A DNA stretch of 64,000 nt from Clostridia bacterium (GTDB lineage: Bacteria > Bacillota > Clostridia > Christensenellales > Borkfalkiaceae). The stretch spans positions 25,099 through 89,098 of the forward strand of contig JAFUJR010000017.1 in NCBI GenBank assembly GCA_017468085.1, given 5' to 3'. How positions within the stretch are numbered: the stretch's first letter is position 1; each line of letters opens with the position of its first letter. A model generated the notes under the pieces. The model ran no database searches. It saw only the letters and a list, made by a program, of their open reading frames with translations, and was not told where the DNA came from. The position numbers and the translations under genes were made by a program. Shown here in pieces: positions 20,541 to 44,064 of the stretch.

Positions 20541-20666
20541 TAAAACAAAGAATATACTGCACAATACGGCGTTGCGTTTGCGTTTTCCCTTGGTCATTTA
20601 CGCACAGTAAACTCCCGTCGGGAAAGCCGCGCGCGCCTTGTCTTGCTTGTATCTTGCTTTGTTTTC
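20541..20666 (+). repeat. Structured palindromic element, copy 2
   Basis: It starts directly after the ilvC stop. The outer stem AAAACAAAG/CTTTGTTTT, middle TTTTCCC/GGGAAAG and apical TTTAC-GCACA-GTAAA all pair, and differ from other copies by compensating changes. Confidence 0.85.
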
Positions 20667-20719
20667 ACCATTTTGGCAGGCGCCTTGAACTGCTTGCATC
20701 TCCACATCAAAAACCTATA

Positions 20720-20838
20720 ACACAAAACGACGAAGATACAGCGTTGCGTTTGCGTTTTCCCTTAGTCATTTACGCACAGTAAACTCCCGTCGGGAAAGCC
20801 GCGCGCGCCTTGTCTTGCTTGTATCTTGCTTTGTTTTT
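20720..20838 (+). repeat. Structured palindromic element, copy 3
   Basis: A near-identical second copy of 20541-20666 in the ilvC-ilvD gap. GAAGATAC/GTATCTTG pairs near the ends. A leftover right end (CGCCTTGAACTGCTTGCATC) lies between the two copies at 20681. Confidence 0.85.
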
Positions 20839-20932
20839 AAGACGGATAAGGGGCGCACTTCACCCCCCAAACATCTAAAATTTTAGCCATATTCAGCATT
20901 CAGCGTGAAAAACGGCTTTCAAAGGATTAACC

Positions 20933-22591
20933 ATGATTAAAGACACCATTGTAGACGGCTTTCAAAACGCGCCGCACAGATCCCTTTATCACGCGCTCGG
21001 TTTGACGGACGAGGAGCTTTCCCGTCCTCTCATCGGCGTAGTATGCTCGCACAACGAAATCGTTCCCGGCCACACCAACCTCGACAAAATCGCGCAGGCG
21101 GTAAAAATGGGGGTTGCGATGGCGGGCGGTACGCCCATTATGTTCCCTGCAATCACCGTTTGCGACGGTATCGCAATGGGACACAAAGGAATGAAATATT
21201 CCCTCGTAACCCGCGATTTGATTGCGGATTCCACCGAAGCGATGGTGCTTGCGCACGGCTTCGACGGGCTCGTTATGATTCCCAACTGCGATAAAAACGT
21301 ACCCGGGCTTTTGATGGCGGCGGCGAGATTGAATATCCCCACCGTTTTCGTCAGCGGCGGGCCCATGCTCGCGGGCAGGGTAGGGGGCAAAAAGCGCTCT
21401 CTTTCGAGTATGTTCGAGGCAGTCGGCGCGTACACCGCAGGCAAAATCAACGAAGAACAGCTTACCGAATTTGAAAGAAAGGTTTGCCCGACCTGCGGTT
21501 CGTGTTCGGGTATGTACACGGCAAATTCCATGAATTGCCTGACCGAGGTTTTGGGAATGGGCTTACGCGGCAACGGCACGATCCCCGCCGTCTATTCCGC
21601 GCGTATCGAGCTTGCTAAGCACGCAGGTATGCAGGTAATGGAACTCGTGAAGAAGAATATCCGTCCTCGCGATATTATGACGGCGGCGGCAATTAAAAAC
21701 GCGATCACTGCGGATATGGCGCTCGGCTGTTCCACCAACAGTATGCTCCATCTCCCTGCAATCGCCAACGAGTGCGAAGTGCCCTTTGATTTGGACGAAG
21801 TCAACGCCATCAGCGAAAAGACCCCCAATTTGTGCCACCTCGCCCCCGCGGGTCCTACTTATATGGAGGACTTGAACGAAGCGGGCGGCGTGTACGCAGT
21901 GTTAAAAGAGCTTGAAAATCTCAACCTTTTGGATACTTCCGTCATGACCTGTACGGGCAAGACGATGAAGCAAAATTTGGAAGGGGTTGTCAACCTTGAC
22001 GAAGAGGTTATCCGCAAGCCTGAAAACGCGTTTGGCAAAACGGGCGGTATCGCGGTGCTCAAGGGCAACCTCGCCCCCGACGGCTGTGTGGTAAAACGTG
22101 CGGCAGTCGCGCCCGAAATGCTCGTGCACGAGGGCCCTGCCAAGGTATTTGAAAGCGAGGAAGAGTGTATTGCGGCGATCTACGGCGGAAAAATCGTCAA
22201 GGGCGACGTCGTCGTGATCCGTTACGAAGGTCCTGCGGGCGGTCCCGGCATGCGCGAAATGCTTTCGCCTACCTCTGCAATCGCGGGTATGGGCTTGGAT
22301 AAGGACGTAGCCCTCATCACCGACGGCAGATTTTCGGGCGCAACGCGTGGCGCGTCTATCGGGCACGTTTCCCCCGAGGCGGTTTCTGGCGGACTCATTG
22401 CCTACGTGCAAAACGGGGATATTATCGCCATCGATATCCCGAACTATAAAATCGAACTCAAGGTATCGGACGAGGAGCTTGCCAAGCGCAAAGCCACCAC
22501 AACCTTAAAGAAGAAAGAGGTAAGCGGCTACTTGAAACGCTATGCGGCGCAAGTGAGCTCTGCCGACAAAGGCGCAATTATCAACAAATAA
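20933..22591 (+). CDS. ilvD: Dihydroxy-acid dehydratase
   Basis: The 552-aa iron-sulfur enzyme dehydrates dihydroxy acids to 2-oxo acids for Ile and Val. Cluster cysteines are in NCDKNVPG and [19 protein letters not shown]. The C-terminal [15 protein letters not shown] and TDGRFSG are family signatures. The start follows AAAGGATTAACC. It is separated from ilvC by 392 bp of repeats but lacks a promoter of its own that I can see. Confidence 0.97.
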
Positions 22592-22707
22592 AAACGTATA
22601 TACTTCACATTTCAGCGTTGTTGTTCCGTGCGCCTCGTTCACATACGACAAGTATGCTCCCTGCGGCGTACCCGCAACGCCTTGAACTGTTCGCATCTTC
22701 GTTTTTA
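22590..22707 (+). repeat. Structured palindromic element, copy 4
   Basis: It overlaps the ilvD stop codon. Outer AAAAACG/CGTTTTT, middle GTGCGCC/GGCGTAC, apical CATAC-GACAA-GTATG. The apical pairs differ from copies 2-3 and 7-9 but still pair. Confidence 0.85.
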
Positions 22708-22752
22708 TTCTTTTCCAGCGAGCGTATTTTACGCTCCAATATTAAAAATAAG

Positions 22753-22772
22753 CGTACCGTGTACGCGTTGAA
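22753..22772 (+). repeat. Dispersed GTACGCGTTGAA motif, copy 4
   Basis: CGTACCGTGTACGCGTTGAA lies 18 nt before the leuC start codon, just upstream of its ribosome site. Confidence 0.7.
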
Positions 22773-22789
22773 TAAGAAGGTATAAAACT

Positions 22790-24052
22790 ATGTCAATGAC
22801 AATGACGCAAAAAATCCTTGCGGCGCACGCAGGGCTTGACAGCGTAGAGGCAGGTCAACTCATTCTCGTGAGCGTAGACAGAGTGCTCGGCAACGACATC
22901 ACCTCGCCCGTCGCCATCAAGGAATTTAACCGTATCGGCGCGACGGAAGTCTACGATAAGGACAAGGTAACGATGGTCATGGACCATTTCGCCCCCAACA
23001 AGGACATCAAAGCTGCCGAACAATGCAAAATGTGCCGCGATTTTTGCGACAAACACGAGGTTACCCACTTCTACGACGTGGGAAGAATGGGAATCGAACA
23101 CGCTCTGCTCCCCGAAAAAGGTTTGGTTTTGCCCGGCGACGTCGTTATCGGCGCGGATTCCCACACCTGCACCTACGGTGCGCTCGGCGCGTTTTCCACG
23201 GGCGTCGGCTCTACGGATATGGCGTGCGGTATGGCGACGGGCAAGGCATGGTTTAAAGTGCCTTCCGCCATCAAATTCGTCCTCAAGGGCAAGCTGAACA
23301 AATACGTTTCGGGTAAAGACGTTATTTTGCATATCATCGGTAAAATCGGCGTGGACGGCGCGCTGTATAAATCCATGGAATTCGTCGGCGAAGGCGTGCA
23401 AGCTCTCACCGTCTACGATAGGCTCACCATTTCTAATATGGCAATCGAGGCGGGCGCAAAAAACGGCATTTTCGAGGTGGACGAACAAACCCTCGCCTAC
23501 GTAAAAGAACGCTCTGACCGCGATTTTACCGTCTATAAAGCGGACGAGGACGCGGTGTACGACGAAACCTACGAAATCGACCTTTCGACCATTCGATCCA
23601 CCGTCGCGTTCCCGCATTTGCCCGAGAACACAAAGACCTTTGACGAGATCGGGGATATTCCCATCGACCAAGTCGTTATCGGCTCTTGCACCAACGGTCA
23701 GTATAAAGACATCGCGGAGGCGGCGGAAATCCTCAAAGGCAAAAAGATCGCCAAGCGCGTCCGCGCCATTATCATTCCCGCCACCCAAGATATTTATATG
23801 AAAGCGGTGGAAAACGGACTTGTGAAAATCTTCATCGACGCGGGCTGCGTGGTATCCACGCCCACCTGCGGGCCCTGCCTTGGCGGTTATATGGGCATTT
23901 TGGCGGCGGGCGAAAGGGCGGTTGCCACCACGAATCGTAACTTCGTCGGGCGTATGGGACACGTAGAGAGCGAGGTATATCTCGCCTCTCCTGCGGTGGC
24001 GGCAGCAAGCGCTGTTATGGGCAAGATTTCTGCTCCACAGGAGGTAATGTAA
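22790..24052 (+). CDS. leuC: 3-isopropylmalate dehydratase, large subunit
   Basis: The 420-aa aconitase-family subunit carries the [4Fe-4S] cysteines in GSCTNGQ and [32 protein letters not shown] is the substrate-site signature. It is the shorter archaeal-like (LeuC2/HacA-type) form. With LeuD it isomerises 2- to 3-isopropylmalate. The SD AGAAGG lies before the ATG. Its stop overlaps the leuD start (TAATG). Confidence 0.96.
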
Positions 24053-24546
24053 TGATTTTCAACGGAAAAGGTATCAAATACGGCGACAACGTCGATACGG
24101 ACGTCATTATCCCCGCCCGCTACTTAAACACCATCGACAAAGCCGAGCTTGCTTCCCATTGTATGGAGGACATCGACAAGGACTTTAAAAACAAGGTAGA
24201 AAAGGGGGATATTATCATCGCAGGCTACAACTTCGGTTGCGGCTCTTCGCGCGAACACGCCCCCATCGCTATTAAAGAGAGCGGGATTTCTCTCGTCATC
24301 GCAAAGAGCTTTGCGCGCATCTTCTACCGTAATTCCATCAACATCGGACTTGCAATCGTCGAGTGTCCCGAGGCGGTGGACGGCATAGCGGACGGCGACA
24401 AGGTGGAGGCGGATTTGGAAAACGGAATTCTCTACAACCGCACCACGGGCGCGAGCTTTAAAACCCAGCCCTTCCCCGCGTTTATCCAAAGCATTATCGA
24501 AAACGGCGGGTTGGTTGCGTCGATAAAATCGGGCGTAATTAAGTAA
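24052..24546 (+). CDS. leuD: 3-isopropylmalate dehydratase, small subunit
   Basis: The 164-aa swivel-domain subunit shows [15 protein letters not shown] and [14 protein letters not shown], the family signatures. It overlaps leuC by one base, so the two are translationally coupled. SD ACAGGAGG lies inside leuC. Confidence 0.96.
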
Positions 24547-24573
24547 AAACAAAAGGGCAGGTACGAGTTGAAT

Positions 24574-25644
24574 ATGAAAACTTACAAAATCGCTTTATTA
24601 AAAGGGGACGGCATCGGCCCTGAAATCGTCGAAAGCGCCGTCCGAGTATTAGAGGTGGTCGGCAAAAAGCACGATATCCGTTTCGAGTTCACCCCCTATC
24701 TTATCGGCGGCGCGGCAATCGACGCCTGCGGCAATCCGTTACCCCCAGAAACGGTGGACGGGTGCTTAAACGCCGATTCCGTTCTTCTCGGCGCAGTCGG
24801 AGGGCCGAGGTGGGACAATCTCCCCGGCAATATCCGTCCCGAAAAGGCGCTTCTTGGCATTCGTGCGGCGATGGGCTTGTTCACCAATCTACGCCCTGCA
24901 AAATTATATCCCGCCCTTAAAGGGGAATGTCCCTTGCGCGAGGATATCGTCGCAAACGGCTTCGATATTATGATCGTGCGCGAGCTGACGGGCGGTATTT
25001 ATTTTGGCGAGCGCGGTTACCGTGAGGGCAAGTACGGCGAGGAGGCGTTCGACACCGAAAGCTACAGCCGTATGGAAATCGAGCGTATCGTCCGCGTAGC
25101 CTTTGAAACGGCGAAAAAACGCCGCAAAAAACTGACTTCTATCGACAAGGCGAACGTCTTGGAAACCTCCCGTTTATGGCGCAAAATCGTGCATGAAATC
25201 GCGGCGGAATATCCCGATGTCGAGGTTTACGATATGCTCGTGGACAATGCGGCAATGCAGCTCGTACGCAACCCGTCCCAGTTCGACGTTATCGTAACGA
25301 GCAATATGTTCGGCGACATTTTATCCGACGAGGCGTCGCAAATCACAGGTTCTATCGGTATGCTCCCGTCCGCGTCTTTAAACGAGGGTAAGCGCGGCCT
25401 TTACGAGCCTATCCACGGCTCTGCGCCCGATATTGCAGGGCAGAACAAAGCCAACCCGATTGCCACTATTCTGTCCGCGGCGATGATGCTCTTATACGCC
25501 TTTGACGAAAGCGTAGCGGCAGACGATATCGTAAACGCGGTAGACAAGGTGTTAAACGACGGCTATCGCACGGCGGATTTGGCGCACGGCGCGCCCGCTC
25601 TTTCCACCGCGGAAATGACGGAAAAAATTATCGAAAATCTCTAA
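24574..25644 (+). CDS. leuB: 3-isopropylmalate dehydrogenase
   Basis: The 356-aa NAD-dependent enzyme oxidises and decarboxylates 3-isopropylmalate. It has [30 protein letters not shown], the metal-binding [17 protein letters not shown] and [10 protein letters not shown]. The ATG at 24574 lies two codons inside a TTG-started frame. No normal Shine-Dalgarno is present: the 20 bp before it are a copy of the dispersed motif (AGGGCAGGTACGAGTTGAAT), whose GCAGGT may serve as a weak ribosome site. Confidence 0.96.
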
Positions 25645-25660
25645 AAAACGAAAAAAGCGC

Positions 25661-25680
25661 GTACCGTGTACGCGTTGAAA
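25661..25680 (+). repeat. Dispersed GTACGCGTTGAA motif, copy 5
   Basis: GTACCGTGTACGCGTTGAAA lies between leuB and the ilvA ribosome site. Confidence 0.7.
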
Positions 25681-25699
25681 CCCGTAAAGGAGTCAAAAT

Positions 25700-26896
25700 A
25701 TGCTTACGATAGACAGCGTATATCGCGCGCGAAACGTTCTTAAAAGCGTGATTCGCGAAACGGACGTCATCTATGCCCCCAAGCTTTGCGAGGGTACGCA
25801 GTTATATTTAAAAACGGAAAACTTACAGCTCACGGGCTCGTTCAAGGTGCGCGGCGCGTATTATAAAATGTCCTGTCTTTCCGACGAGGAAAAAGCACGC
25901 GGCGTGGTGGCTTGTTCGGCAGGTAACCACGCGCAGGGCGTTGCGCTTGCGGCGCAAAAAAGCGGCATTAAGTCGGTAATTTGTCTGCCCGACGGCGCGC
26001 CCATTTCCAAGGTCGAGGCAACTAAAAGCTACGGCGCGGAGGTGTGCTTGGTCGAGGGCGTGTACGACGACGCCTACCAAAAAGCGCTTGCGCTCCGTGA
26101 AGAAAAGGGCTATACCTTTATCCACCCCTTTAACGACGAGGACGTGATTGCAGGGCAAGCGACGATTGCGTTAGAGCTTGCCGAACAGCTTCCCGATTTG
26201 GACGCAATCCTCGTGCCCATCGGCGGCGGCGGTTTGATTTCGGGCATCGCCTACGCAATCAAGACGATAAACCCCAAGGTGAAGGTGTACGGCGTGCAGG
26301 CAAAGGGCGCTCCGTCCATGAAAAATGCGGTGGAGCACGGCGAAATTGAAGAACTTCCGTCCGTTTCCACAATAGCAGACGGTATCGCCGTCAAAAAGCC
26401 GGGCGCGCTCACCTACGAGCTTTGCTCTAAATACGTGGACGAAATCGTAACGGTTACGGACGATGAAATTTCCGCGGCGATTTTGGCGCTTATGGAACGG
26501 CACAAGCTGGTTACGGAAGGCGCCGGCGCGGTGTCGGTTGCGGCGGCTATGTTCAACAAGGTCGATTTGAAGGGCAAAAAGGCGGTGTGCGTCCTTTCGG
26601 GCGGCAATATCGACGTAACGATACTTTCGCGCGTTATCAAACGCGGACTTTTGATGTCGGGCAGAAGCTGTCAACTCATGATAGAGCTTGTCGACAAGCC
26701 GGGACAGCTCAAAAACGTATCGCGCATCATTGCGGACCTCGGCGGCAACGTTACCTCGGTGCACCACGAAAGAGCGAACGAGGGCTCGGACGTCAACGGC
26801 TGTTATCTGCGTATCGTTTTAGAAACGAAAAATTACGAGCATATCGCGCAAATCAAGCAAGCTCTGCGCGATTTTGGCTTTAAATTATTGCAATAA
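25700..26896 (+). CDS. ilvA: Threonine ammonia-lyase with ACT domain
   Basis: The 398-aa PLP enzyme makes 2-oxobutanoate from threonine for isoleucine. The PLP lysine lies in LTGSFKVRGAYYKM, with PIGGGGLISGIAYA as the phosphate loop. One C-terminal ACT domain (about 325-398, MIELVDKPGQLKNVSRIIADLGGNV) marks the medium-length type. That type can be catabolic or biosynthetic; its place inside the leu/ilv cluster favours biosynthesis. SD AAAGGAG. Confidence 0.95.
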   Translation: MLTIDSVYRARNVLKSVIRETDVIYAPKLCEGTQLYLKTENLQLTGSFKVRGAYYKMSCLSDEEKARGVVACSAGNHAQGVALAAQKSGIKSVICLPDGAPISKVEATKSYGAEVCLVEGVYDDAYQKALALREEKGYTFIHPFNDEDVIAGQATIALELAEQLPDLDAILVPIGGGGLISGIAYAIKTINPKVKVYGVQAKGAPSMKNAVEHGEIEELPSVSTIADGIAVKKPGALTYELCSKYVDEIVTVTDDEISAAILALMERHKLVTEGAGAVSVAAAMFNKVDLKGKKAVCVLSGGNIDVTILSRVIKRGLLMSGRSCQLMIELVDKPGQLKNVSRIIADLGGNVTSVHHERANEGSDVNGCYLRIVLETKNYEHIAQIKQALRDFGFKLLQ

Positions 26897-26910
26897 AGGG
26901 AGATAAACAA

Positions 26911-27288
26911 ATGGAACTTAAAAAGGTAGCAACGGAAAGCGCACCCGCGGCAATCGGCCCGTATTCGCAGGCGATTATCTGCGGCGAAACGGTGTTTACG
27001 TCGGGGCAGATTCCCATCAATCCCGCCACGGGCAATATAGAGGCAACGACGATTGAAGGGCAAGCAGAACAGGTCATGAAAAACCTCGGCGAAGTGTTAA
27101 AAGCGGCAGGCAGTAGCTTTGAAAAAGCAGTAAAAACCACCTGCTTTTTGGCGGATATGGCGGATTTTGCGGCGTTCAACGGCGTATACGCAAAATATTT
27201 CACCACCAACCCCGCGCGTAGCTGCGTCGCGGTAAAAACGCTTCCCAAAAACGTCCTCGTCGAAGTGGAAGTCATCGCCACGTTATAA
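26911..27288 (+). CDS. ridA: RidA family enamine/imine deaminase
   Basis: The 125-aa protein has the RidA pattern: AAIGPYSQAIICGETVFTSGQIPINPATG, then the active-site Arg in NPARSCVAVKTLPKNVLVEVEVIA. RidA hydrolyses the reactive 2-aminoacrylate and 2-aminocrotonate released by IlvA and protects PLP enzymes such as IlvE. It follows ilvA by 14 nt with SD AAAGGGAG, which fits this role. Last gene of the cluster. Confidence 0.96.
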   Translation: MELKKVATESAPAAIGPYSQAIICGETVFTSGQIPINPATGNIEATTIEGQAEQVMKNLGEVLKAAGSSFEKAVKTTCFLADMADFAAFNGVYAKYFTTNPARSCVAVKTLPKNVLVEVEVIATL

Positions 27289-27302
27289 AATAACGGAACA
27301 AA

Positions 27303-27343
27303 AAAAACCGACTGCAAGGCAAGCTGCCCGCAGTCGTTTTTTC
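27303..27343 (+). terminator. Terminator of the leu/ilv operon
   Basis: A stem of ACTGC/GCAGT with extended CGACTGC pairing, followed by CGTTTTTTC. Confidence 0.85.
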
Positions 27344-27432
27344 TATATCATATAGCAAAACAAAAAGAATTTTATTCAAATCCGCGCGTCCACACAGTCG
27401 ATATGCCTATAAAAGAACGGGCGATGGGTAGT

Positions 27433-27457
27433 GAGGTTGTGTCAAACTTCAAGTTTG
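27433..27457 (-). repeat. CAAACTTGAAGTTTGACACA repeat, copy 1
   Basis: The minus strand reads CAAACTTGAAGTTTGACACA then ACCTC. It matches 52437-52462; the first 15 nt are a palindrome. Confidence 0.7.
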
Positions 27458-27462
27458 TAAAC

Positions 27463-27499
27463 AGATAGCCGCCCCGAAAACGTTTCGGGGCGGCTATCT
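27463..27499. repeat. Perfect 17-bp inverted repeat
   Basis: AGATAGCCGCCCCGAAA and TTTCGGGGCGGCTATCT enclose a 3-nt loop. There is no T-run on either side long enough for a classical terminator. Confidence 0.85.
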
Positions 27500-27706
27500 A
27501 TATGATAAGGGGGAAAATGATGAGCTGTTTTAGGTATCTCGGTTATCCACAACCGATTTACAAGTATATTCTATCACGCCCCCACAAAAAAGTAAAGGGA
27601 AAAATCAAACATTTTTTAAAAACTTAAAAACTATATCGTACACGCAAAAAATGTTCAAAATTAACATTTTCACACTTTTTTCAAAAAATTCACAAAATGC
27701 AATCAT

Positions 27707-28249
27707 TTACGATAACAGCGCAAATACGTACTCTAAAAGGTAGTAAAAACCCGCTACAATACTTCCTACGGCGCCGCCTGCCAATAAGTCGGACGGGTAA
27801 TGCAAGCCGAGCGCAAACCGCACCCACGCCAAAATCACCGCCAGCGCAAGCAATCCGCCGCCCATAATCGGCAAAGAGGGAAAAAAGCACAACACGATTG
27901 CCGCCGCGCACGCCAAATGACGGCTGGGGAAAGAATCTTCCTCGCTCCCCTTCCTTTTCGTTAAGGGGGTAATGCCGGCGCCTTTTGTAGAATAGGGACG
28001 GGGACGGGCAATCATTGCGCGCAAAACGCTCACCAAAAATAGGGTAAGTAAGGGAATAAATGCAATACGGATAAAATCGTGCGTGGAAAAATTCCCCCAA
28101 AGCACGGCGTACACCCACAGCCCGATATAAGCAAGCCCAAACGTGCCCGTCAACAGCTTATCGAATAAGGACAACGCCTTTTTTGCTTTAGGGCGCGCCT
28201 CAAAGAAAGCCGCGCTTTTTTCGTAAAGTTTTTTGTAACTGTAACCCAT
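27707..28249 (-). CDS. PAP2-family membrane phosphatase
   Basis: The 180-aa protein has about 5 membrane helices and the phosphatase motifs ARPRPYS, SFPSRHLAC and VRFALGLHYPSDLLAG. The family includes undecaprenyl pyrophosphatases and phosphatidylglycerophosphatases; the substrate cannot be told. The ATG at 28249 is 6 nt after an extended -10 (TGGTATACT) of a strong promoter, so the mRNA is probably leaderless. A longer frame from 28276 would begin upstream of the transcription start, so I reject it. Confidence 0.9.
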   Translation of the reverse strand: MGYSYKKLYEKSAAFFEARPKAKKALSLFDKLLTGTFGLAYIGLWVYAVLWGNFSTHDFIRIAFIPLLTLFLVSVLRAMIARPRPYSTKGAGITPLTKRKGSEEDSFPSRHLACAAAIVLCFFPSLPIMGGGLLALAVILAWVRFALGLHYPSDLLAGGAVGSIVAGFYYLLEYVFALLS

Positions 28250-28255
28250 AAACAC

Positions 28256-28284
28256 AGTATACCACAATATAGCCAAAATGTAAA
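28256..28284 (-). promoter_or_regulatory. Promoter giving a leaderless PAP2 mRNA
   Basis: Minus strand TTTACA (28284-28279), 17 nt, TATACT (28261-28256), with the extended TGG. The start codon A lies 7 nt downstream of the -10, the usual transcription start. Confidence 0.8.
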
Positions 28285-28325
28285 GTAAAAAAAGAAAACC
28301 TTTCGGGGGGACGAAAGGTTTTCTG
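28284..28325 (-). terminator. Terminator of the EF-G-like gene
   Basis: AGAAAACCTTTCG and CGAAAGGTTTTCT pair around a 6-nt loop. On the minus strand TTTTTTT follows. It abuts the PAP2 promoter. Confidence 0.85.
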
Positions 28326-28349
28326 GTAATGCTTAGTTAATAGAGGGAA

Positions 28350-30670: not shown

Positions 30671-30704
30671 AAATGCAAAATGCTGAGTGCGAAATGCGGA
30701 ATTA
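30671..30704 (+). repeat. Heptamer array (RRTGCKG) in the 5' leader
   Basis: Units AATGCAA, AATGCTG, AGTGCGA, AATGCGG then AATT, all within the transcribed leader of the cysteine desulfurase gene. Confidence 0.7.
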
Positions 30705-36228: not shown

Positions 36229-36266
36229 AAAAACGCGCTCCCCCCGCATAAGGAAGCGCGTTTTTC
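36228..36266 (-). terminator. Terminator of spmAB
   Basis: AAAACGCGCT and AGCGCGTTTT pair across a C-rich loop; the T-run lies on the minus strand. Confidence 0.75.
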
Positions 36267-36780
36267 ACATAATTTTACACAAAAAGCAGGCGAAAACCAC
36301 GGACGCCAAATAGGAAATTACGGCAATACATACCGCCGCGTTCAGCTTTTTCCGTTTTAGACCCGCAAAATACACCGCGCCGACGTAAAAAATCGTTTCC
36401 GACGACCCATACACTACGCAAGCGCACCGCGAAATATAGCTGTCGACCCCGTAAATTTCCAATATGTCGGACAGAACGGCAATCCCGCCGCTCCCCGAAA
36501 GGGGCTTGATCAAAATCAGGGGCGCAATTTCCTTGGGTACGCCCAAAAAATCAAAGGCAGGCGCAAGCCATTTTGCCATTGCCGCGCTCAGTCCGCTTAC
36601 CTCCATCAGCTTGGAAAGCATGGTTATCGCCGCTATGTAGGGAAAGACGGAAATGATCAACGGAAGCACCCCTTTCACGCCGTCCGCAAACGAATCGTAT
36701 ACCCGCACTTTTCGAAAAAGCGCAAACGCAAACGACCCGAAAAAGATAAGGGGGATTATGAGTGCCAAAATCTTCGTCAT
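36265..36780 (-). CDS. spmB: Spore maturation protein B
   Basis: The 171-aa membrane protein has a nucleoside-recognition (Gate) domain: VLPLIISVFPYIAAITML, then IKPLSGSGGIAVLSDI and VYGSSETIFYVGAVYFA, the SpmB signatures. In Bacillus SpmA and SpmB are needed for spore core dehydration. It overlaps spmA by 4 bases (ATGA), so they are translationally coupled. The sequence ahead of the ATG is GGGGGCAGGTACGCG, a dispersed-motif variant that also provides the ribosome site. Confidence 0.93.
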   Translation of the reverse strand: MTKILALIIPLIFFGSFAFALFRKVRVYDSFADGVKGVLPLIISVFPYIAAITMLSKLMEVSGLSAAMAKWLAPAFDFLGVPKEIAPLILIKPLSGSGGIAVLSDILEIYGVDSYISRCACVVYGSSETIFYVGAVYFAGLKRKKLNAAVCIAVISYLASVVFACFLCKIM

Positions 36781-37403
36781 CGCGTACCTGCCCCCGCCGT
36801 TTTCCGTTTTTTACCCCATACGTGCCTCGTTTTTTCCTTGCAAGCAGCCGTCTTTTTCGGCTTAATAAATACGAACACCAGCAAAACCCCAAGCGCCGTC
36901 GAAAATATGGAAGTGAAAAGGGTGGGCAGAATAATATCCGTCGGCGCGCCGCTCCCCATCGCCACGCGCACGGCAACGAGAGAGGTCGGCAAAAGCTGTA
37001 ACGAGGTCGCGTTTAAAACGAAGAACATCGCGGATGAAAATTCCGCGTTTTCCGTCCTATCCAAAAGCTGCGCCGTCTGTACGCCGTAGGGGGTTGCCGC
37101 CCCCGAAATCCCAAGCACGTTGACGGACAAATTCATGCACGCCGCCGAAAGCGCTTCCTCGTCGTCCGTTTTCAAAATCCGCCGCGCAATCGGTTTTAAA
37201 AGACGGGAAACACCCCTCGAAACGCCGCTGTTTTCCCAAACGCGCATCAACCCCATCCATACGGAATAGGTTGCGATAAGCGAAGCGGAGAGGGTGGCTG
37301 CCCTCGACGCGCCCTCCAGCATTGCCGACAAAAAATTCTCGGGCGAGGCGCAGAGCAGTAAAAAGGTACAAACTAAAAAAATCAGGGTAAAAATCACGTT
37401 CAT
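36777..37403 (-). CDS. spmA: Spore maturation protein A
   Basis: The 208-aa membrane protein has the Gate fold: YSVWMGLMRVWENSGVSRG, LSVNVLGISGAATPYGVQTAQLL and FVLNATSLQLLPTSLVAVR are typical of SpmA. A Lys/Arg-rich tail follows (about 180-208). It forms a two-gene unit with spmB. Its presence suggests an endospore-forming lineage or one that recently lost sporulation. Confidence 0.93.
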   Translation of the reverse strand: MNVIFTLIFLVCTFLLLCASPENFLSAMLEGASRAATLSASLIATYSVWMGLMRVWENSGVSRGVSRLLKPIARRILKTDDEEALSAACMNLSVNVLGISGAATPYGVQTAQLLDRTENAEFSSAMFFVLNATSLQLLPTSLVAVRVAMGSGAPTDIILPTLFTSIFSTALGVLLVFVFIKPKKTAACKEKTRHVWGKKRKTAGAGTR

Positions 37404-37470
37404 AGCCTTAATATATGCGCAAAAAAGGGCAAAAATGAGCGCCTTTTCCCTATCAGCCCTCTCAAAACAG

Positions 37471-37499
37471 TTTACTTTTCAAGTAAAAAGCGGTATAAT
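37471..37499 (+). promoter_or_regulatory. Promoter of metG
   Basis: TTTACT (37471-37476), 17 nt, TATAAT (37494-37499). Confidence 0.75.
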
Positions 37500-37507
37500 G
37501 AAGAATA

Positions 37508-37570
37508 ATGGATAACTGTGCGCCTTTCAGGCGCGGTATTTCGCAAGATAAACAAGAAATCAACGCATAA
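37508..37570 (+). CDS. Possible 20-aa leader peptide of metG
   Basis: An ATG 8 nt after the -10 opens a 20-codon frame (MDNCAPFRRGISQDKQEINA). Its stop overlaps the metG ribosome site TAAGGAG. No Met codons beyond the first, so an attenuation role is not evident. Weak evidence: position only. Confidence 0.2.
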   Translation: MDNCAPFRRGISQDKQEINA

Positions 37571-37585
37571 GGAGTAAACGCTATT

Positions 37586-39583
37586 ATGGCAAAAAAACCT
37601 TATTATATCACCACCGCAATTGCCTATACTTCGGGCAAACCGCATATCGGCAATACTTACGAAGCAATTTTGGCAGACGCTATCGCTCGTTTTAAGCGCA
37701 AGCAGGGCTACGACGTGTTCTTTATGACCGGCACGGACGAGCACGGCCAAAAAATTCAAGAAAAAGCACAGGCGGCAGGCGTAACGCCCCAAGCGTTCGT
37801 CGATAAAGTAGCGGGCGAAATCAAAGAAATTTGGGATAACGTCGGCACGTCGTACGATAAATTTATCCGCACCACCGACGCAGACCACGTCGCGCAGGTG
37901 GCAAAAATCTTCAAAAAATTCTACGAGCAGGGCGACATTTACAAGGATTATTACGAGGGTATGTATTGTACCCCTTGCGAATCCTTTTGGACGGAAAGCC
38001 AACTCAAAGACGGCAAATGCCCCGATTGCGGAAGAGATTGTAAGCCCGCCAAGGAAGAAGCCTACTTCTTCAAGATGAGCAAATACGCCGACAGACTTAT
38101 CGAGCATATCAACACCCACCCCGAGTTCATTCAACCCGTTTCCCGTAAAAACGAGATGATGAACAACTTCCTCTTGAAAGGTTTGCAGGACTTGTGCGTA
38201 TCGAGAACTTCGTTCTCGTGGGGTATTCCCGTCGATTTTGACAATCGCCACGTCGTTTACGTATGGCTCGACGCGCTGAGCAACTACATCACGGGCTTAG
38301 GCTTTGACGCGGACGGCAACCACGGCGAAAATTACAAAAAATATTGGCCCGCGGATCTGCACCTCATCGGCAAGGATATTCTCCGTTTCCACACCATTTA
38401 TTGGCCCATCTTCCTTATGGCGCTCGGCGAACCCTTACCCAAGCAGATTTTCGGCCATCCTTGGCTGTTGCAAGGGGACGGAAAAATGAGTAAATCCAAG
38501 GGCAACGTCATTTACGCGGACGACCTCGCCCGCCTTTTCGGCGTGGACGCGGTGCGTTATTTCGTCTTGCACGAAATGCCTTTCGATAACGACGGACAAA
38601 TCACTTGGGAGCTCGTAACCGAACGCTTCAACACCGAGCTTGCCAACGTCCTTGGCAATTTGGTCAGCAGAACGATTGCAATGATAGAAAAATACTTCGG
38701 CGGCACGGTGGTAAGATCCTTGCCGGCAAACGAGGAAGACCCCGACGCAGAATTTAAAGCAACCGTAACGGGCGTCGTGGCAAAGGTCGGCGCGAAAGCG
38801 GACGAGCTTCGTATCGCAGACGCCATCTCCGAAGTGTTCACGCTGTTCCGCCGTGCAAACAAATACATCGACGAAACCATGCCTTGGGCGCTTGCGAAAG
38901 ACGAAAGCAAAAAATCCCGTCTTAACGACGTGCTTTACAACCTTGCAGAGGCAATTCAGATCGGCGCGAGCTTGCTTGATAGCTTCATGCCCGAAACCTC
39001 CGCAAAAATTCTGTCCGCCTACGGCGCGGAGAGCAGAACGCTTGAAGATTGCGCAAAATTCGGCATTCGCGACAGCGTAACCGTAACGGCAATTCCGCCT
39101 ATGTTCGCCCGTATCGACTTCAAGAATATCGCGCCCGAAATCGAAAAAATCAGAGCGGCGCAAGCGGCGGCATACGCGGCGGAAACGGCGGCTGCAGCAC
39201 CTGTAAAAACGCAAGAAAAATCCGCCGAAGCTCCCGCGGAAGAAACGGAAAAAACGCCCGAAATCACCTTTGACGATTTTGTAAAGGTAGAGCTTCGCGT
39301 CGGCGAAATTATCGCTTGCGAGCCCGTACCCAAGTCCAACAAGCTCTTAAAAGAAACGGTGAAATTCGGCAATGAAACGCGCACCATCGTTTCGGGTATC
39401 GCCAAGCATTACACCCCCGAAGAAATGGTGGGCAAAAAGGTGGTGTTCGTTACCAACCTCGCCCCCAGAAAGGTTTGCGGTATTATGTCCGAGGGTATGA
39501 TTTTGGCGGCAGAGGACGAAAGCGGCACGCTCTCGCTCGTCAGTCCCGAAAAGGATATTGCCAGCGGCACTCGTTTAGGCTAA
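37586..39583 (+). CDS. metG: Methionyl-tRNA synthetase
   Basis: The 665-aa class I enzyme charges tRNA-Met. The HIGH motif is PHIGNTYEA. One zinc knuckle is CTPCESFW...CPDCGRDC, and the KMSKS motif is GKMSKSKGN. The C-terminal Trbp111-like tRNA-binding domain (about 560-665) starts DFVKVELRVGEIIACE and forms the dimer. An Ala/Glu-rich linker precedes it. SD AAGGAG. It heads a run metG-tatD-radical SAM that is common near ruvC/rsmA in Clostridia. Confidence 0.97.
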   Translation: MAKKPYYITTAIAYTSGKPHIGNTYEAILADAIARFKRKQGYDVFFMTGTDEHGQKIQEKAQAAGVTPQAFVDKVAGEIKEIWDNVGTSYDKFIRTTDADHVAQVAKIFKKFYEQGDIYKDYYEGMYCTPCESFWTESQLKDGKCPDCGRDCKPAKEEAYFFKMSKYADRLIEHINTHPEFIQPVSRKNEMMNNFLLKGLQDLCVSRTSFSWGIPVDFDNRHVVYVWLDALSNYITGLGFDADGNHGENYKKYWPADLHLIGKDILRFHTIYWPIFLMALGEPLPKQIFGHPWLLQGDGKMSKSKGNVIYADDLARLFGVDAVRYFVLHEMPFDNDGQITWELVTERFNTELANVLGNLVSRTIAMIEKYFGGTVVRSLPANEEDPDAEFKATVTGVVAKVGAKADELRIADAISEVFTLFRRANKYIDETMPWALAKDESKKSRLNDVLYNLAEAIQIGASLLDSFMPETSAKILSAYGAESRTLEDCAKFGIRDSVTVTAIPPMFARIDFKNIAPEIEKIRAAQAAAYAAETAAAAPVKTQEKSAEAPAEETEKTPEITFDDFVKVELRVGEIIACEPVPKSNKLLKETVKFGNETRTIVSGIAKHYTPEEMVGKKVVFVTNLAPRKVCGIMSEGMILAAEDESGTLSLVSPEKDIASGTRLG

Positions 39584-39706
39584 AAAACGGCGTATATACT
39601 TCGCAATACGGCGTTGCGGTGCGGTAACCCTCGGTTATGTACTTCAATGTACACGCCCTCGGGCTGTCCTCCCGCGCCTTGTCTTGCTCGCATCTCCGCC
39701 GTTTTA
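39583..39706 (+). repeat. Structured palindromic element, copy 5
   Basis: It overlaps the last base of the metG stop. Outer AAAACGGCG/CGCCGTTTT; apical TGTAC-TTCAAT-GTACA. Confidence 0.88.
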
Positions 39707-39711
39707 CGAAC

Positions 39712-39822
39712 AGCGTATATACTTCGCAATACGGCGTTGCGGTGCGGTAACCCTCGGTTATGTACTTTAATGTACACGCCCTCGGGCTGTCCTCCCGCGC
39801 CTTGTCTTGCTCCGCCGTTTTA
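39712..39822 (+). repeat. Structured palindromic element, copy 6 (tandem)
   Basis: A tandem copy of 39583-39706 starting at the GCGTATATACTTCGC end; it differs by one base in the apical loop and a short deletion near the right end. Confidence 0.88.
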
Positions 39823-39855
39823 CCGTTCTTAAAGTAACGGCGTAAAATTTCAGCC

Positions 39856-39890
39856 GCAATTCAGCACTCAGCACTCAGCATTTCGCATTT
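39856..39890 (+). repeat. Heptamer array upstream of tatD
   Basis: AATTCAGCACTCAGCACTCA then GCATTTCGCATTT: five tandem units in reverse-complement form, about 15 nt before the tatD start. Confidence 0.75.
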
Positions 39891-39905
39891 AAAAACGGAG
39901 TTTTT

Positions 39906-40691
39906 ATGTATATCGACGTACACTGCCACTTAACGGGTGGCGAATACGACGCGCTCGGCGGCGTGGACGAGGTGATTTCTCAAGCCAAAGCCGACGGCGT
40001 AGAACGCATGATTTGTTCGGGGTTTGACCTCGATTCCTCGTATATCGCAAAGGAGTTGAGCGAAAAACACCCCGAGGTTTATTTCTGCGCAGGCTTCCAT
40101 CCCAGCGAACTTGATAAATATCAAGAGGGGGATTTGGATAAGCTCAAAGCCCTCTGCAAGCACGAAAAATGCGTGGCGGTGGGGGAAATCGGGCTCGATT
40201 ATCATTTCGACGACAATCCGCCCAAGGAAACCCAACGCGAGTTTTTCATTAAGCAGTTAGAAATCGCAAACGAGCTGAAATTGCCCGTGGTCATTCACAG
40301 CCGCGACGCCGCGCAGGAAACCTTAGAACTGTTAAAACGAAACGCCTGCCTTTTGCAAAGCAAAGGCTTAATGCATTGCTATTCCTATTCGGCGGAAATG
40401 CTGGACGAATTTGCAAAATTAGGGCTTTCTTTTTCCTTCGGCGGTCCGTCCACATTCAAGAACGCAAAAAAGGTGTGGGAGTGCGTTCAACGCATACCTG
40501 CCCCCTTGCTTTTATCCGAAACGGATTGTCCCTATCTCACCCCCGTCCCCTTTAGGGGAGAATTTCCCAACCAACCCAAACACGTAGCGCCCATCGTCAA
40601 AAATATGGCGGCGCTCCGCAACGAAAACGAGGAGATTTTGAAAAAGCAAATTTTCGACAACGCAAAAAAGCTCTTTTTCAAATTGAACTGA
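39906..40691 (+). CDS. tatD: TatD-family metal-dependent DNase
   Basis: The 261-aa TIM-barrel hydrolase begins YIDVHCHL (first metal site) and has GEIGLDYHFD, VIHSRDA, LMHCYSYS and SETDCPYLTP, all metal or active-site signatures. The family has 3'-5' DNase and D-aminoacyl-tRNA-linked roles. It lies after metG and 4 nt before a radical SAM gene of the TatD-associated type. A dispersed motif lies inside the frame on the opposite strand (40486-40505). SD GGAG. Confidence 0.93.
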   Translation: MYIDVHCHLTGGEYDALGGVDEVISQAKADGVERMICSGFDLDSSYIAKELSEKHPEVYFCAGFHPSELDKYQEGDLDKLKALCKHEKCVAVGEIGLDYHFDDNPPKETQREFFIKQLEIANELKLPVVIHSRDAAQETLELLKRNACLLQSKGLMHCYSYSAEMLDEFAKLGLSFSFGGPSTFKNAKKVWECVQRIPAPLLLSETDCPYLTPVPFRGEFPNQPKHVAPIVKNMAALRNENEEILKKQIFDNAKKLFFKLN

Positions 40692-40695
40692 TATC

Positions 40696-41688
40696 ATGGA
40701 CGAAATCAAGAACAAAAACGAACAACCTAACGCGCAACAGGGTAGCCCTAACGGCGGCAGAAAACGCCGTCGTCATAGAGGCGGAAAAGGCAATAAGGGC
40801 AACAATCAAAGCCCCGAAAACCGCGTCCAACAGCCCCAGCAGTCCGCGCAAGCTCCGCAAAAGCCCCAAAATACCCAAAACGGCAATAAGCCGAAGGGGG
40901 ATAAGCAGAAAAATAAGCAGGACAAAAACGCGCAACCTCAGCAAAACGGGCAGAAGCAGCAATCTCAGCCCCAAAAGCAACAGCCCAAACAGCCTCAGTC
41001 CCAAAAGCAGAACAATCAAAACGGAAACAAGCAAAAGGGCAATAAGCAGGAAAAGCAGGATAAGCGAGAGGAAAACCGCAAGGATACCTACGTGTATACC
41101 TTGGACGGCAATTTGTACATCAATCTCACCAACAAATGCTCTAACGCCTGCGATTTCTGCGTTCGCAACGAGCGTTCCAGCTACTACGGCAATTATCTGT
41201 GGCTGAGAAACGGCGATCCGACGGTGGAAAAGGTGATTGCCGCGGCAAACGGAATGGGTGATTTGAGCCGTTTCAAGGAGGTCGTATTCTGCGGCTTTGG
41301 CGAGCCTACCTACAAGATAGCGGAAATGGTCGCCCTCTGCGATTTTTTCCATGAAAAAGGCTTAAAAACCCGCCTCAACACCAACGGTCAGGGCAACCTC
41401 ATCAACAAGCGCGACGTCGTGCCCGACTTGAAGGACAAAATCGACTTCGTTAATATTTCGCTCAACGCGTCTTGTTACGAAAAATATCAGCCCATCTGCC
41501 GTTCGCAATTTAAAGAGGCAGGCTTCGAGGGCATGATTGAATTTGCCAAGCTCTGCCGCCGCAACGGCATAAACTGCCGTTTCTCGATTGTCGATTGTAT
41601 CGGCGAGGAGGAGGTTGCGGCGTGTAAATGCCTCGCAGACAGCGTGAAGATTCCGCTTTACGTTCGTAAGTATATCACAGATAGTTAA
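40696..41688 (+). CDS. TatD-associated radical SAM protein with long low-complexity N-terminus
   Basis: The C-terminal 200 residues (131-330) are a compact radical SAM protein: YINLTNKCSNACDFCVRNE gives the CxxxCxxC cluster motif, followed by VVFCGFGEPTYK and RLNTNGQGN. This matches the group that sits next to tatD in Clostridia. Residues about 5-130 are a Gln/Lys/Asn/Pro-rich, strongly basic, disordered stretch (GRKRRRHRGGKG, then repeats of PQKQQPKQPQ type) that the family normally lacks; it looks RNA-binding (inference). No alternative start with a ribosome site is seen between the tail and the domain. It follows tatD by 4 nt. Confidence 0.87.
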   Translation: MDEIKNKNEQPNAQQGSPNGGRKRRRHRGGKGNKGNNQSPENRVQQPQQSAQAPQKPQNTQNGNKPKGDKQKNKQDKNAQPQQNGQKQQSQPQKQQPKQPQSQKQNNQNGNKQKGNKQEKQDKREENRKDTYVYTLDGNLYINLTNKCSNACDFCVRNERSSYYGNYLWLRNGDPTVEKVIAAANGMGDLSRFKEVVFCGFGEPTYKIAEMVALCDFFHEKGLKTRLNTNGQGNLINKRDVVPDLKDKIDFVNISLNASCYEKYQPICRSQFKEAGFEGMIEFAKLCRRNGINCRFSIVDCIGEEEVAACKCLADSVKIPLYVRKYITDS

Positions 41689-41812
41689 AAAACGGACGTA
41701 TATACTTCGCAATACGGCGTTGTCGTTCTGCGCCCTCATTCACGTACAAACAAGTACGCTCCTATCGGGGTACTCACGACGCCTTGTCTTGCTTGCATCT
41801 CCGCCGTTTTTC
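41688..41812 (+). repeat. Structured palindromic element, copy 7
   Basis: It overlaps the stop of the radical SAM gene. Outer AAAAACGG/CCGTTTTT; apical CGTAC-AAACAA-GTACG; GGCGT/ACGCC-type inner pairing. Confidence 0.88.
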
Positions 41813-41877
41813 CAAACCGCAGACGAGCGGTGTATAAATCACAGCCGCAATTCAGCATTTTAACAAAGGAACAACCT

Positions 41878-42627
41878 ATGTACAAACCCCAACCTTTATC
41901 TCCGATCCGCAAAAAATTTCTTTGCATATTTTTGCCGATTTGGTGCACGGCAACCCTCGTGCCCTTGATCATCATTTGCGTTTTAATGGCAATGCACGGC
42001 GAGGAAAAATACGAGCCGCACATTTTAATTTGGACTGCTTTTACGTTGGGTACGGGCTTGACTTCTTTGGGTATTTTTCTGCCGTGGCTCAACCGCAAAG
42101 AAGGTTTGGAACGCGAATTAAACCGCTTTTCGTATCTGTTTAAAGACCCGAAACCCTTGACGGAAAACGAGGTGAAGATCCAAGACGAAAGCACGGGAAT
42201 TACCTACACCCTCACCCAAGACGGCATCGCCGCGGAGTGGGAGCAAGACGAGCAAGCAGAGGGGCAGGTATTCGACGAAGTGCAGGAAAACCAACTTTTT
42301 CTGCCTTGGGAAAAGGCGGAGCTTCTTTTCGCCTCGCAAAAAGGCTTTTACTGCGTACATATCGCTTTGGCGGTAATGCCGGGCGCTAACGCCGACGTCG
42401 CGGAGGAATACGTGCATATAATTCCTATGCAAGAAAAATTATTTCAAGCGATTTGCGCGTTTGATTTAAAGGAAAAATTAGACGGACAATGGCAATATCT
42501 TTTTTACAACCCCAAGGACGCCTTTAAGCAGATATTAAAAAAGGGTCGCATTTTGGAAATGCGCAACAAAAACACGGGCAAAATTTTTGTGGATAAGCAC
42601 GGAAATTTCCTCGGCGACCAAGAATAA
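41878..42627 (+). CDS. Hypothetical protein with two membrane helices (YcxB-like layout)
   Basis: The 249-aa protein has membrane helices at about 16-40 and 53-71, then a soluble domain of about 160 residues with ITYTLTQDGIAAEW and ENQLFLPWEKAELLFASQKGFYCVHI, a pattern like YcxB-type proteins (strand-rich, after two helices). The ATG at 41878 follows AAAGGAAC; an upstream in-frame ATG at 41830 lies in repeat DNA and is rejected. Function unknown. Confidence 0.65.
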   Translation: MYKPQPLSPIRKKFLCIFLPIWCTATLVPLIIICVLMAMHGEEKYEPHILIWTAFTLGTGLTSLGIFLPWLNRKEGLERELNRFSYLFKDPKPLTENEVKIQDESTGITYTLTQDGIAAEWEQDEQAEGQVFDEVQENQLFLPWEKAELLFASQKGFYCVHIALAVMPGANADVAEEYVHIIPMQEKLFQAICAFDLKEKLDGQWQYLFYNPKDAFKQILKKGRILEMRNKNTGKIFVDKHGNFLGDQE

Positions 42628-42639
42628 AATTTAAGCAAT

Positions 42640-42676
42640 AATTCAGCGTTCAGCACTCAATATTCAGCATTTCCGC
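42640..42676 (+). repeat. Heptamer array upstream of rsmA
   Basis: ATTCAGCGTTCAGCACTCAA then TATTCAGCATTTCCGC: units of the RRTGCKG family in reverse form, running into the rsmA leader hairpin. Confidence 0.7.
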
Positions 42677-42699
42677 AAGGCGTTGCCTTGCAAAGGACT
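42674..42699 (+). promoter_or_regulatory. Hairpin-plus-SD leader module of rsmA
   Basis: GCAAGGC-GTT-GCCTTGC hairpin (42675-42691) is followed at once by AAAGGACT. The same 26 nt precede ruvB (46077-46102). Confidence 0.75.
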
Positions 42700-42702
42700 T
42701 TT

Positions 42703-43545
42703 ATGCAAGACCTTCGCAGTATTCTCGAAAAACACGGCTTTCATTTTAAAAAGCAATTCGGGCAAAATTTCATATCCGACGCCAACCTTTTGCGTTCTAT
42801 CGTCGAGGCTTCGGGCATTGATAAAAACACAACCGTCGTTGAAATCGGTTGCGGCGCAGGCACGCTGACAAGGGCGCTTGCCGAGGCGGCAAAAAAGGTA
42901 TACGCCTTCGACATCGACAGAGATTTGCAGCCCGTCTTGGCGGAAACTTTGGCGGGGCTTGACAACGTAGAGGTTATTTTCCGCGATTTCAGCAAGCTCG
43001 ATTTAAAGGAATTTGAAGCGGAAATCGGGGAATACGCCGTCGTGGCAAATCTGCCCTACTATATCACCACGCCCCTCGTAACCAAATTGTTGGAAGAAAG
43101 CGACAAGGTGCAGGGCTTGTCCGTGATGGTACAAGAGGAGGTGGCGGACAGATTTTGCGCCAAAGAGAACACGCCCGAATACGGCTCTATTACGGCGGCG
43201 ATAGCTTTAAAGGGTGTTGCAAAAATCGTAAAGCGCGTCCCCAGAACCCTTTTTTATCCCCGTCCAAACGTCGATTCTGCAGTTGTAAAAATCGAATTTG
43301 ACAGGGGCAGGGTCGCGGTGAAAGACGAAAGAGCCTATCGCCAAACGGTAAAGTGCGCCTTTTTAAACCGCAGAAAAACCTTAGAAAACAACCTCGTCAA
43401 TTTCTTCAAACTGACGAGGGAACAAGCAAAATCCGCATTAAGCCAAGCGGGCGTGGACGAAAAGGCGAGGGGGGAAACCTTATCGCCGTACGCCTTTGCA
43501 AAACTCGCCGATATTTTGCTCGATATGGGCGCTATTAAATTGTAA
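42703..43545 (+). CDS. rsmA: 16S rRNA (A1518/A1519) dimethyltransferase
   Basis: The 280-aa KsgA methyltransferase modifies two adenines in helix 45 of 16S rRNA. It has KKQFGQNFISD, the SAM motif EIGCGAGTLTRAL, the catalytic NLPYYITTPLV and the C-terminal RVPRTLFYPRPNVDSAVV. The ATG at 42703 lies 5 nt after AAAGGAC; an in-frame TTG at 42688 lies inside the leader hairpin and is rejected. Confidence 0.95.
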   Translation: MQDLRSILEKHGFHFKKQFGQNFISDANLLRSIVEASGIDKNTTVVEIGCGAGTLTRALAEAAKKVYAFDIDRDLQPVLAETLAGLDNVEVIFRDFSKLDLKEFEAEIGEYAVVANLPYYITTPLVTKLLEESDKVQGLSVMVQEEVADRFCAKENTPEYGSITAAIALKGVAKIVKRVPRTLFYPRPNVDSAVVKIEFDRGRVAVKDERAYRQTVKCAFLNRRKTLENNLVNFFKLTREQAKSALSQAGVDEKARGETLSPYAFAKLADILLDMGAIKL

Positions 43546-43649
43546 ATCTGCAAACGGATTTTTGGGCAGCCAATATTCCGCGAATATGATAAAATCGGTA
43601 AGCCCGATGGATTTTCCAAAAAAATCTGTATAAAAACTTGGCGTAAGCC

Positions 43650-43678
43650 TTTACTAATTGAAAAAAATGTGATATAAT
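43650..43678 (+). promoter_or_regulatory. Promoter of the ferredoxin gene
   Basis: TTTACT (43650-43655), 17 nt, TATAAT (43673-43678). Confidence 0.75.
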
Positions 43679-43713
43679 ATACACATAAAAGCAAAAAACG
43701 GAGGTAAATAACT

Positions 43714-43884
43714 ATGGCACATATCATTACGGATGCTTGCGTAGCTTGCGGCGCATGTGAAGCAACCTGCCCTGTAAACGCAATTTCTTTGGGTGATAAC
43801 GGTATTTACGTTATCAGCGACGAATGCGTAGACTGCGGCGCTTGTGCAGCAGAATGCCCTGTAGAAGCGATCAAAGGCGAATAA
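43714..43884 (+). CDS. 2[4Fe-4S] ferredoxin (56 aa)
   Basis: A complete small clostridial ferredoxin. Two CxxCxxCxxxCP motifs are CVACGACEATCP (C9, C12, C15, C19) and CVDCGACAAECP (C38, C41, C44, C48), the standard ligand sets for two [4Fe-4S] clusters. It is 56 aa, as is usual for the family, and soluble. It carries electrons at low potential for anaerobic metabolism. SD GGAGG 8 nt before the ATG; own promoter and terminator, so monocistronic and probably highly expressed. Confidence 0.97.
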   Translation: MAHIITDACVACGACEATCPVNAISLGDNGIYVISDECVDCGACAAECPVEAIKGE

Positions 43885-43906
43885 TTTAATTGAAATTAAA
43901 AACGGA

Positions 43907-43938
43907 AGGAGCGTTGCAAAACGCTCTTTTTGTTTTTT
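43907..43938 (+). terminator. Terminator of the ferredoxin gene
   Basis: GAGCGTT-GCAA-AACGCTC followed by TTTTTGTTTTTT. Confidence 0.9.
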
Positions 43939-43939
43939 A

Positions 43940-44064
43940 TAAAACGGACGTATATACGTCGCATTTCCGCGTTGTTGCTCCGTGCGGCTTGGTCACGTAC
44001 GCCAAGTACGCTCCCCGCGCCGTACTCGCAACGCCTTGAACTGCTCGTATCTCCGCCGTTTTAC
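43940..44064 (+). repeat. Structured palindromic element, copy 8
   Basis: It follows the ferredoxin terminator. Outer AAAACGG/CCGTTTT; middle GTGCGGC/GCCGTAC; apical CGTAC-GCCAA-GTACG. Confidence 0.88.

Follow-up and report, generated by a model that had tools for sequence, protein, structure and literature searches.

Covarying arms, a predicted opposite-strand fold and site turnover in a possibly mobile, ERIC-like palindromic repeat of a Clostridia genome

A palindromic repeat of ~120 bases occurs in nine copies, every one on the + strand, in a 64-kb window (the whole stretch analysed here: 64,000 nucleotides of contig JAFUJR010000017.1, positions 25,099 to 89,098) of the genome of a Clostridia bacterium (GCA_017468085.1). 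The two arms of this element covary, the strand opposite to the sense strand folds better than the sense strand itself, the copies mostly begin at stop codons, and the occupants of individual sites have turned over between sister species. We lean towards the view that the element is a palindromic, ERIC-type DNA repeat, mobile but non-autonomous; its opposite strand would fold as single-stranded DNA, and its sites would often be overwritten.

Eight of the window copies are 116-126 bases long and the copy after queA is 103; each is an imperfect palindrome along its full length, and copies occur singly and in tandem. From base to tip, the element consists of an outer stem, the junction GCGTT/CGCCTT, a middle stem that is interchangeable, and the tip itself, where a 5-bp stem stands above an internal loop of 3x3 bases; this loop reads TCA/CTC in the sense strand and GAG/TGA in its complement. 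An earlier note on this stretch had quoted the apical stems as TTTAC/GTAAA (20541, 20720), CATAC/GTATG (22590), TGTAC/GTACA (39583, 39712, 49907) and CGTAC/GTACG (41688, 43940, 48262), and these are present as quoted in the window copies, together with the middle and outer stem variants it listed. A covariance model built from the cores of the nine copies (R1) retrieved nothing else from the window at E <= 1, and Rfam at its gathering score left the element unmatched, its window matches being a T-box and tRNA only. When seven window copies were folded as + strand RNA, four gave z <= -3 and three gave z between -1.5 and -0.35, which is a weaker point.

Covariation of the arms

We aligned 94 local copies from the genome of the window (G000) and a sister species (G019). 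Paired bases were found in 85.2% of the cells, compared with 72.0% in shuffles (standard deviation 0.5), and the covariation score was 0.377, compared with 0.175 in shuffles; sliding the partner by 1-3 columns brought it to 0.146 at most. For a tree-aware null, Fitch substitutions were redistributed over a FastTree tree (60 replicates) and scored with a G statistic and average-product correction, using 86 sequences after 8 of the 94 rows had been dropped as short or identical; this procedure imitates R-scape but is not R-scape, and exchange among copies violates its tree. Eight column pairs reached E < 0.05, six of which lie inside the 30-pair structure, and the other 24 structure pairs were not significant, again a weaker point.

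In order to follow the element across phyla, we collected exact matches to GTCACGTACN{4,7}GTACGCTCCC, a pattern that fixes the tip by construction and admits some chance hits. From the matches listed we drew a set of 127 copies and the loci of an alignment termed A7, which comprises 51 sequences from several phyla (46 loci and 5 copies of the window family). The A7 loci were picked by eye (54 picked, 53 retrieved, with L263, L279, L294, L297, L303, L322 and L338 left out), and such picking favours a clear architecture. The tree-aware test gave nine pairs at E < 0.1, eight of them belonging to the consensus structure. Double changes were counted in 246 cells of the 23-pair A7 structure, with a covariation score of 0.457 (0.122 in shuffles, at most 0.157 in slides), while further pair types were not raised (47 vs 51.5 in shuffles). 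For example, columns 31-94 carry GC 17 times, CG 16 times, AU 8 times and UA 7 times. The earlier note had suggested R-scape on aligned copies, and the R-scape-like check found the covariation to be real, locally and across phyla. Since the covariation passes a tree-aware test and recurs across phyla, the pairing is under constraint. Single-pair compensations were also seen, e.g. GCAA/TTGC vs GAAA/TTTC, so pairs also change individually.

The folding strand and the position at gene ends

Our prior expectation was that the sense strand would carry the fold, but the reverse was found. Among the 83 of 94 local copies that could be compared (11 were dropped as short or with incomplete flanks), the opposite strand was the more stable in 66 with RNA energies and in 74 with DNA energies; among the 127 cross-phylum copies it was the more stable in 124, with RNA and DNA energies alike. 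Removal of the 32-nt tip left the opposite strand better in 100 of the cross-phylum copies vs 26. Part of the asymmetry comes from the tip, whose GAG/TGA loop on the complement could form tandem G·A pairs. The A7 mismatches lean the same way, with 93 pyrimidine-pyrimidine vs 27 purine-purine mismatches on the sense strand and 39 A·C vs 19 G·U. Across the eight A7 structure pairs with significant covariation, G·U fills 4 of 407 cells, all of them at columns 11-112 (the other seven pairs: 0 of 356); in 48 tRNAs taken from the fetched loci, by comparison, it makes up 69 of the 1040 stem pairs. The better folding of the opposite strand and the scarcity of G·U among the covarying pairs fit a single-stranded DNA hairpin better than an element of mRNA. 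The earlier note had proposed selection on RNA (or cruciform) structure and named the feoAB transcript as one to probe; on the evidence above, the RNA half of that proposal is disfavoured and the cruciform half fares better.

The copies are placed with respect to genes in a characteristic way. Copy 1 (20541..20665) adjoins the ilvC stop codon (20538-20540) on its 3' side and is followed by copy 2 (20722..20839), the second member of the pair, which has the same core. Copy 3 (22589..22707) has the ilvD stop codon as its first bases, copy 4 (39581..39706) that of MetRS, with copy 5 (39707..39822) as its tandem repeat, and copy 6 (41686..41811) that of a radical-SAM gene. Copy 7 (43940..44063) is the exception and lies away from a stop codon, the upstream gene ending at 43545. 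Two copies are situated past the end of the span covered by the earlier note (20541..44064): copy 8 (48261..48363), which starts with the queA stop codon and has a short outer stem, AAAC/GTTT, and copy 9 (49906..50030), which starts with the stop codon of a FeoA-like open reading frame (ORF) of 73 codons before feoB. IlvC, IlvD, MetRS and QueA are complete at their ends, the match to each Pfam family stopping no more than 9 residues short. In some members of the genus (L165, L166 and L190), small GAATTG/CAATTC-flanked hairpins stand after ilvD in place of the element.

Counting ORFs of at least 80 codons or running off the locus, we found the stop codon of a same-strand ORF within the terminal 19 bases of the element in 30 of 41 first copies in G000 and 25 of 30 in G019, whereas eleven other offsets gave 1-6 of 82-86; the 55 stops are TAA in 52 cases, TAG in 1 and TGA in 2. 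With simple ORF calls, the pattern hits were also examined for a same-strand stop at positions -2 to 8 relative to the estimated start; such a stop accompanies 5 of the 14 Bacteroidales-like hits, 4 of the 8 from Delta/Desulfovibrio, none of the 8 enterobacterial ones and 16 of the 67 others. Across 30 orthologous queA loci, 19 carry an R1 match just past the stop codon and 11 have none there at E <= 0.01; outer stems at this site include AAC/GTT, AAAC/GTTT, GGC/GCC and AGAC/GTCT among the loci listed. The copies also share an orientation along each contig: the 50 matches (E < 0.01) on the nine contigs of G000 that have at least two lie on a single strand per contig. The same is true of the copies on 25 of the 26 comparable contigs in five further genomes of the genus, and 81 of 333 long ORFs (24%) run the other way. 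We considered an orientation set by replication and rejected it: agreement with GC skew was 9/9, 8/12 and 0/5 in three genomes elsewhere in the phylum, and with such mixed agreement replication polarity is no general rule.

The placement at stop codons speaks for an mRNA 3'-end element, in which the sense transcript folds past the stop codon and serves termination, mRNA protection or RNase cleavage, selection on the RNA then driving the compensations. Stem-loops and some repeats are described as enriched at gene 3' ends (PMC1590033), and in Yersinia a co-transcribed ERIC RNA alters the stability of the upstream mRNA in an orientation-dependent manner (De Gregorio 2005, as summarized in PMC2229807). 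The structure derived from the sense strand of the local copies also holds 283 G·U vs 72 A·C cells; that count is biased, since the structure itself was chosen from the sense strand, and the strand argument therefore rests on the fold comparisons and mismatch counts instead. These point the other way, as does the scarcity of G·U relative to tRNA at the significant cross-phylum pairs. Moreover, the ilvD element is inverted in G019, and some copies precede genes that are read in the other direction. We consider this explanation unlikely, though it fares best among the alternatives.

Turnover of sites and possible movement

Fifteen sites among those listed are occupied in both G000 and G019, with flanks ~83-93% identical. 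At 14 of them the occupant is closer to the best paralogue of its own genome than to its orthologue, and at the remaining one (L037:5238 / L231:4393) the two elements are ordinary orthologues (91%). At the ilvD site the elements have opposite orientations in the two species, and certain sites are occupied in one species but empty or cut down to an arm in the other. Basal and middle modules combine differently among copies, and both arms switch together. Site turnover and module switching indicate that much of the difference between copies is replacement by other palindromes or modules. Of the earlier note's view that selection keeps the structure while the sequence drifts, the constraint on pairing stands, but drift in place is not supported in that form. 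The note's own refuting case, variants arising only by whole-palindrome copying, applies in part: replacement is common, but single-pair compensations occur beside it. Compensatory changes in repeats can thus reflect a DNA hairpin and the replacement of whole palindromes, and not RNA structure in a transcript.

An account without selection on folding would have template-switch correction of quasi-palindromes, together with copying of whole palindromes, keep the arms complementary. The frequent replacement at the listed sites, the joint switching of arms and the few G·U intermediates at the significant cross-phylum pairs all agree with it. Correction should, however, erase mismatches. Internal loops and mismatches are instead found at recurrent positions across phyla (at the tip loop the search pattern dictates this, at the junction it does not), and significant covariation falls on paired columns (six of eight pairs locally) instead of on any columns of a module. 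We regard this account as rather improbable. Selection on the RNA fold of a small antisense transcript of the opposite strand appears more doubtful still: the opposite strand is the favoured fold and the sense A·C mismatches, which are G·U on the other strand, exceed the sense G·U in A7, but G·U on that strand comes to only ~4% (39 vs 943 Watson-Crick cells). Insertion inside pre-existing terminator hairpins was considered as well, given outer stems that vary yet pair, and no clean empty site was seen among the G000 and G019 sites compared.

We therefore return to a mobile repeat that folds as single-stranded DNA. According to this model, the complementarity of the arms would be maintained by constraint on the strand opposite to the sense strand, and the folded strand would be recognized through its tip and junction while copies move or are exchanged, by an enzyme supplied from elsewhere. 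Occupants of a site would be overwritten repeatedly, either whole or by an inner module, and such overwriting would change both arms in one step, so that pairing survives replacement. The single-pair compensations, both among copies of one type and from phylum to phylum, would reflect selection on folding.

Several observations weigh against this model. No moving enzyme was identified. The Y1 (IS200/REP-type) transposase was rejected as the mover: it has a match in 14 of 41 genomes of the genus but none in the copy-rich G034 (36 copies) and G007 (68 copies), and copy numbers do not follow its presence. A sense orientation at stop codons is not required by a purely DNA-level element. In the local family, the strand asymmetry is weaker once the tip is removed (53 vs 30), RNAalifold gives the two strands similar consensus energies (sense -41.5, other -42.9), and the G·U excess of the sense-derived structure noted above also counts here. 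The empty sites seen are unclean, because the spacer differs too, and TA, which ERIC has at both termini and duplicates on insertion, is matched by our pattern at the 5' end in 57 of 83 local copies, at the 3' end in 50 and at both ends in only 35. Finally, the tip of the cross-phylum set owes its constancy to the search pattern.

Distribution, relation to known repeats and other features of the window

R1 has 57 matches at E <= 1 in the 2.06-Mb genome of the window, 55 of them with E < 0.01. Two of these are duplicated, L056/L063 and L057/L064 being identical sequence on two contigs. Contigs C23 and C29 are identical around L056:6033/L063:6000 and L057:5987/L064:5945, which points to some redundancy in the assembly. 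Among 61 genomes searched at E <= 0.01, with 0-68 copies each, R1 matched 34 of the 37 that belong to the genus (counting the genome of the window) and 4 of the 24 that represent other families of the order; the best score among the named loci was that of L321 (78.7 bits), a Clostridia bacterium locus with a queA-type copy.

The tip pattern matched at least 119 stretches in genomes from many phyla, and the junction (GCGTT or GCGTC, then CCTTG) lies at matching positions across phyla although it is outside the search pattern. A pan-bacterial model, R3, which superseded a model with only 5 pairs (R2), was used to scan 34 genomes selected by a pattern hit, with at most 109 candidates scored. In these selected genomes it found 82 copies in Serratia quinivorans, 41 in Klebsiella indica, 80 in Desulfovibrio sp. 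A2, 69 in Porphyromonas somerae, 97 in a Bacteroidales metagenome-assembled genome and 103 in a Verrucomicrobia one, and at most 10 copies in 16 of the 34. Of 299 genomes of the phylum drawn without selection (only 12 candidates scored per genome), 24 matched at E <= 1e-6, the genome of the window included, and none of nine other listed genomes of the same class did. The family is therefore patchy and not universal. The literature covered, which leaves most subscription journals outside, held no description of the family beyond enterobacteria and Vibrio.

ERIC (also called IRU or RU-1) is described as ~127 bp long, with terminal inverted repeats and with no transposase encoded within it (PMC2229807, PMC2759123). 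The window copies match it in length and in being imperfect palindromes. The tip AGTCA-stem-loop-stem-GCTCC is shared by the window copies, the E. coli ERIC L364 and the loci from enterobacteria, and going by the ERIC-PCR primers it is the centre of ERIC; GCGTTG and GCCGCCTT are similarly placed in the enterobacterial loci. L364, the only E. coli copy that was folded, also has its more stable fold on the opposite strand (-59.3 vs -44.6 kcal/mol for the sense strand). In contrast, the outer and middle stems of the window family are unrelated in sequence to those of ERIC, and the same-strand stop placement is missing from the eight enterobacterial pattern hits, although one E. coli copy overlaps the ubiV stop. 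When R1 was run on seven enterobacterial loci (L247, L263, L276, L280, L286, L313 and L316), only L286 was matched (22.9 bits, E 0.017); as six of the seven are missed, we class the element as ERIC-like and not as ERIC. Within enterobacteria, the ERIC-looking copy of L276 is matched in 5376 of the 5426 E. coli genomes, at a median of 12 places, and an Enterobacter cloacae genome has only 5 ERIC matches. In E. coli MB52 (L393:735-1780), an ERIC copy separates two partial stretches that carry the annotation of an Rpn-family gene, an arrangement consistent with insertion.

More tentatively, an old superfamily of mobile hairpins of single-stranded DNA may span many phyla, with ERIC as one of its branches; it would be recognized by shape (tip and junction) and not by sequence, and would enter in the sense direction at TAA stops, with a mover yet to be identified. 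The movement of ERIC-type repeat units is called not elucidated in PMC2759123. If the same folded element is present in dozens of copies in Clostridia, Bacteroidales, Desulfovibrio and Verrucomicrobia, comparison across hosts can reveal the gene that travels with it, the strand that folds and the factor that binds the tip.

Other families of repeats offer partial parallels. The attC sites of integrons are placed after genes in the sense direction. The window family is set apart from them by its neighbours, which are syntenic housekeeping genes and not cassettes. According to PMC2727003, attC sites have a variable sequence and their folded bottom strand is the substrate. The window element shares the character of an interspersed palindrome with the REPs and REPINs that go with TnpA-REP (RAYT) Y1 transposases and whose processing is believed to run through single-stranded DNA (PMC6006769), but at ~120 bp it is longer than the 20-40 bp of REPs (PMC3733652), and the copy-rich G034 and G007 lack a Y1 match, as noted above. 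It differs from miniature inverted-repeat transposable elements (MITEs) in that it has no known parent transposase. In RUP and Correia/NEMIS-type families, the copies are much less diverged than in the window family. These and other MITEs are short and non-autonomous, with terminal inverted repeats and TA ends, and RUP has been linked to IS630-Spn1, as summarized in PMC2229807.

The window holds further features. A T-box leader at 15100-15341 (93.9 bits, gathering 93) precedes an ORF at 15438, upstream of branched-chain amino acid genes. A second short repeat, CC[AG]TGTACGCG[GT]TGAA (families D6 and D12), is found at 3555, 8856, 11158, 22728, 25635, 47143 and 53673; it sits before several genes, and similar stretches lie ahead of genes in relatives. 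The short repeat GGGGCAGGTRCG (family D10; 2441, 24546, 31114 and 43296) is possibly its sister. Degenerate intergenic runs of GCATTCAGCATTCCGC type occur at 30671, 35644, 36206, 39868 and 58738, often shortly 3' of the palindromic element. Near the start of the window, two stretches are duplicated, 6596-6668 with 8191-8263 (92% identical) and 7655-7793 with 8282-8420 (83%).

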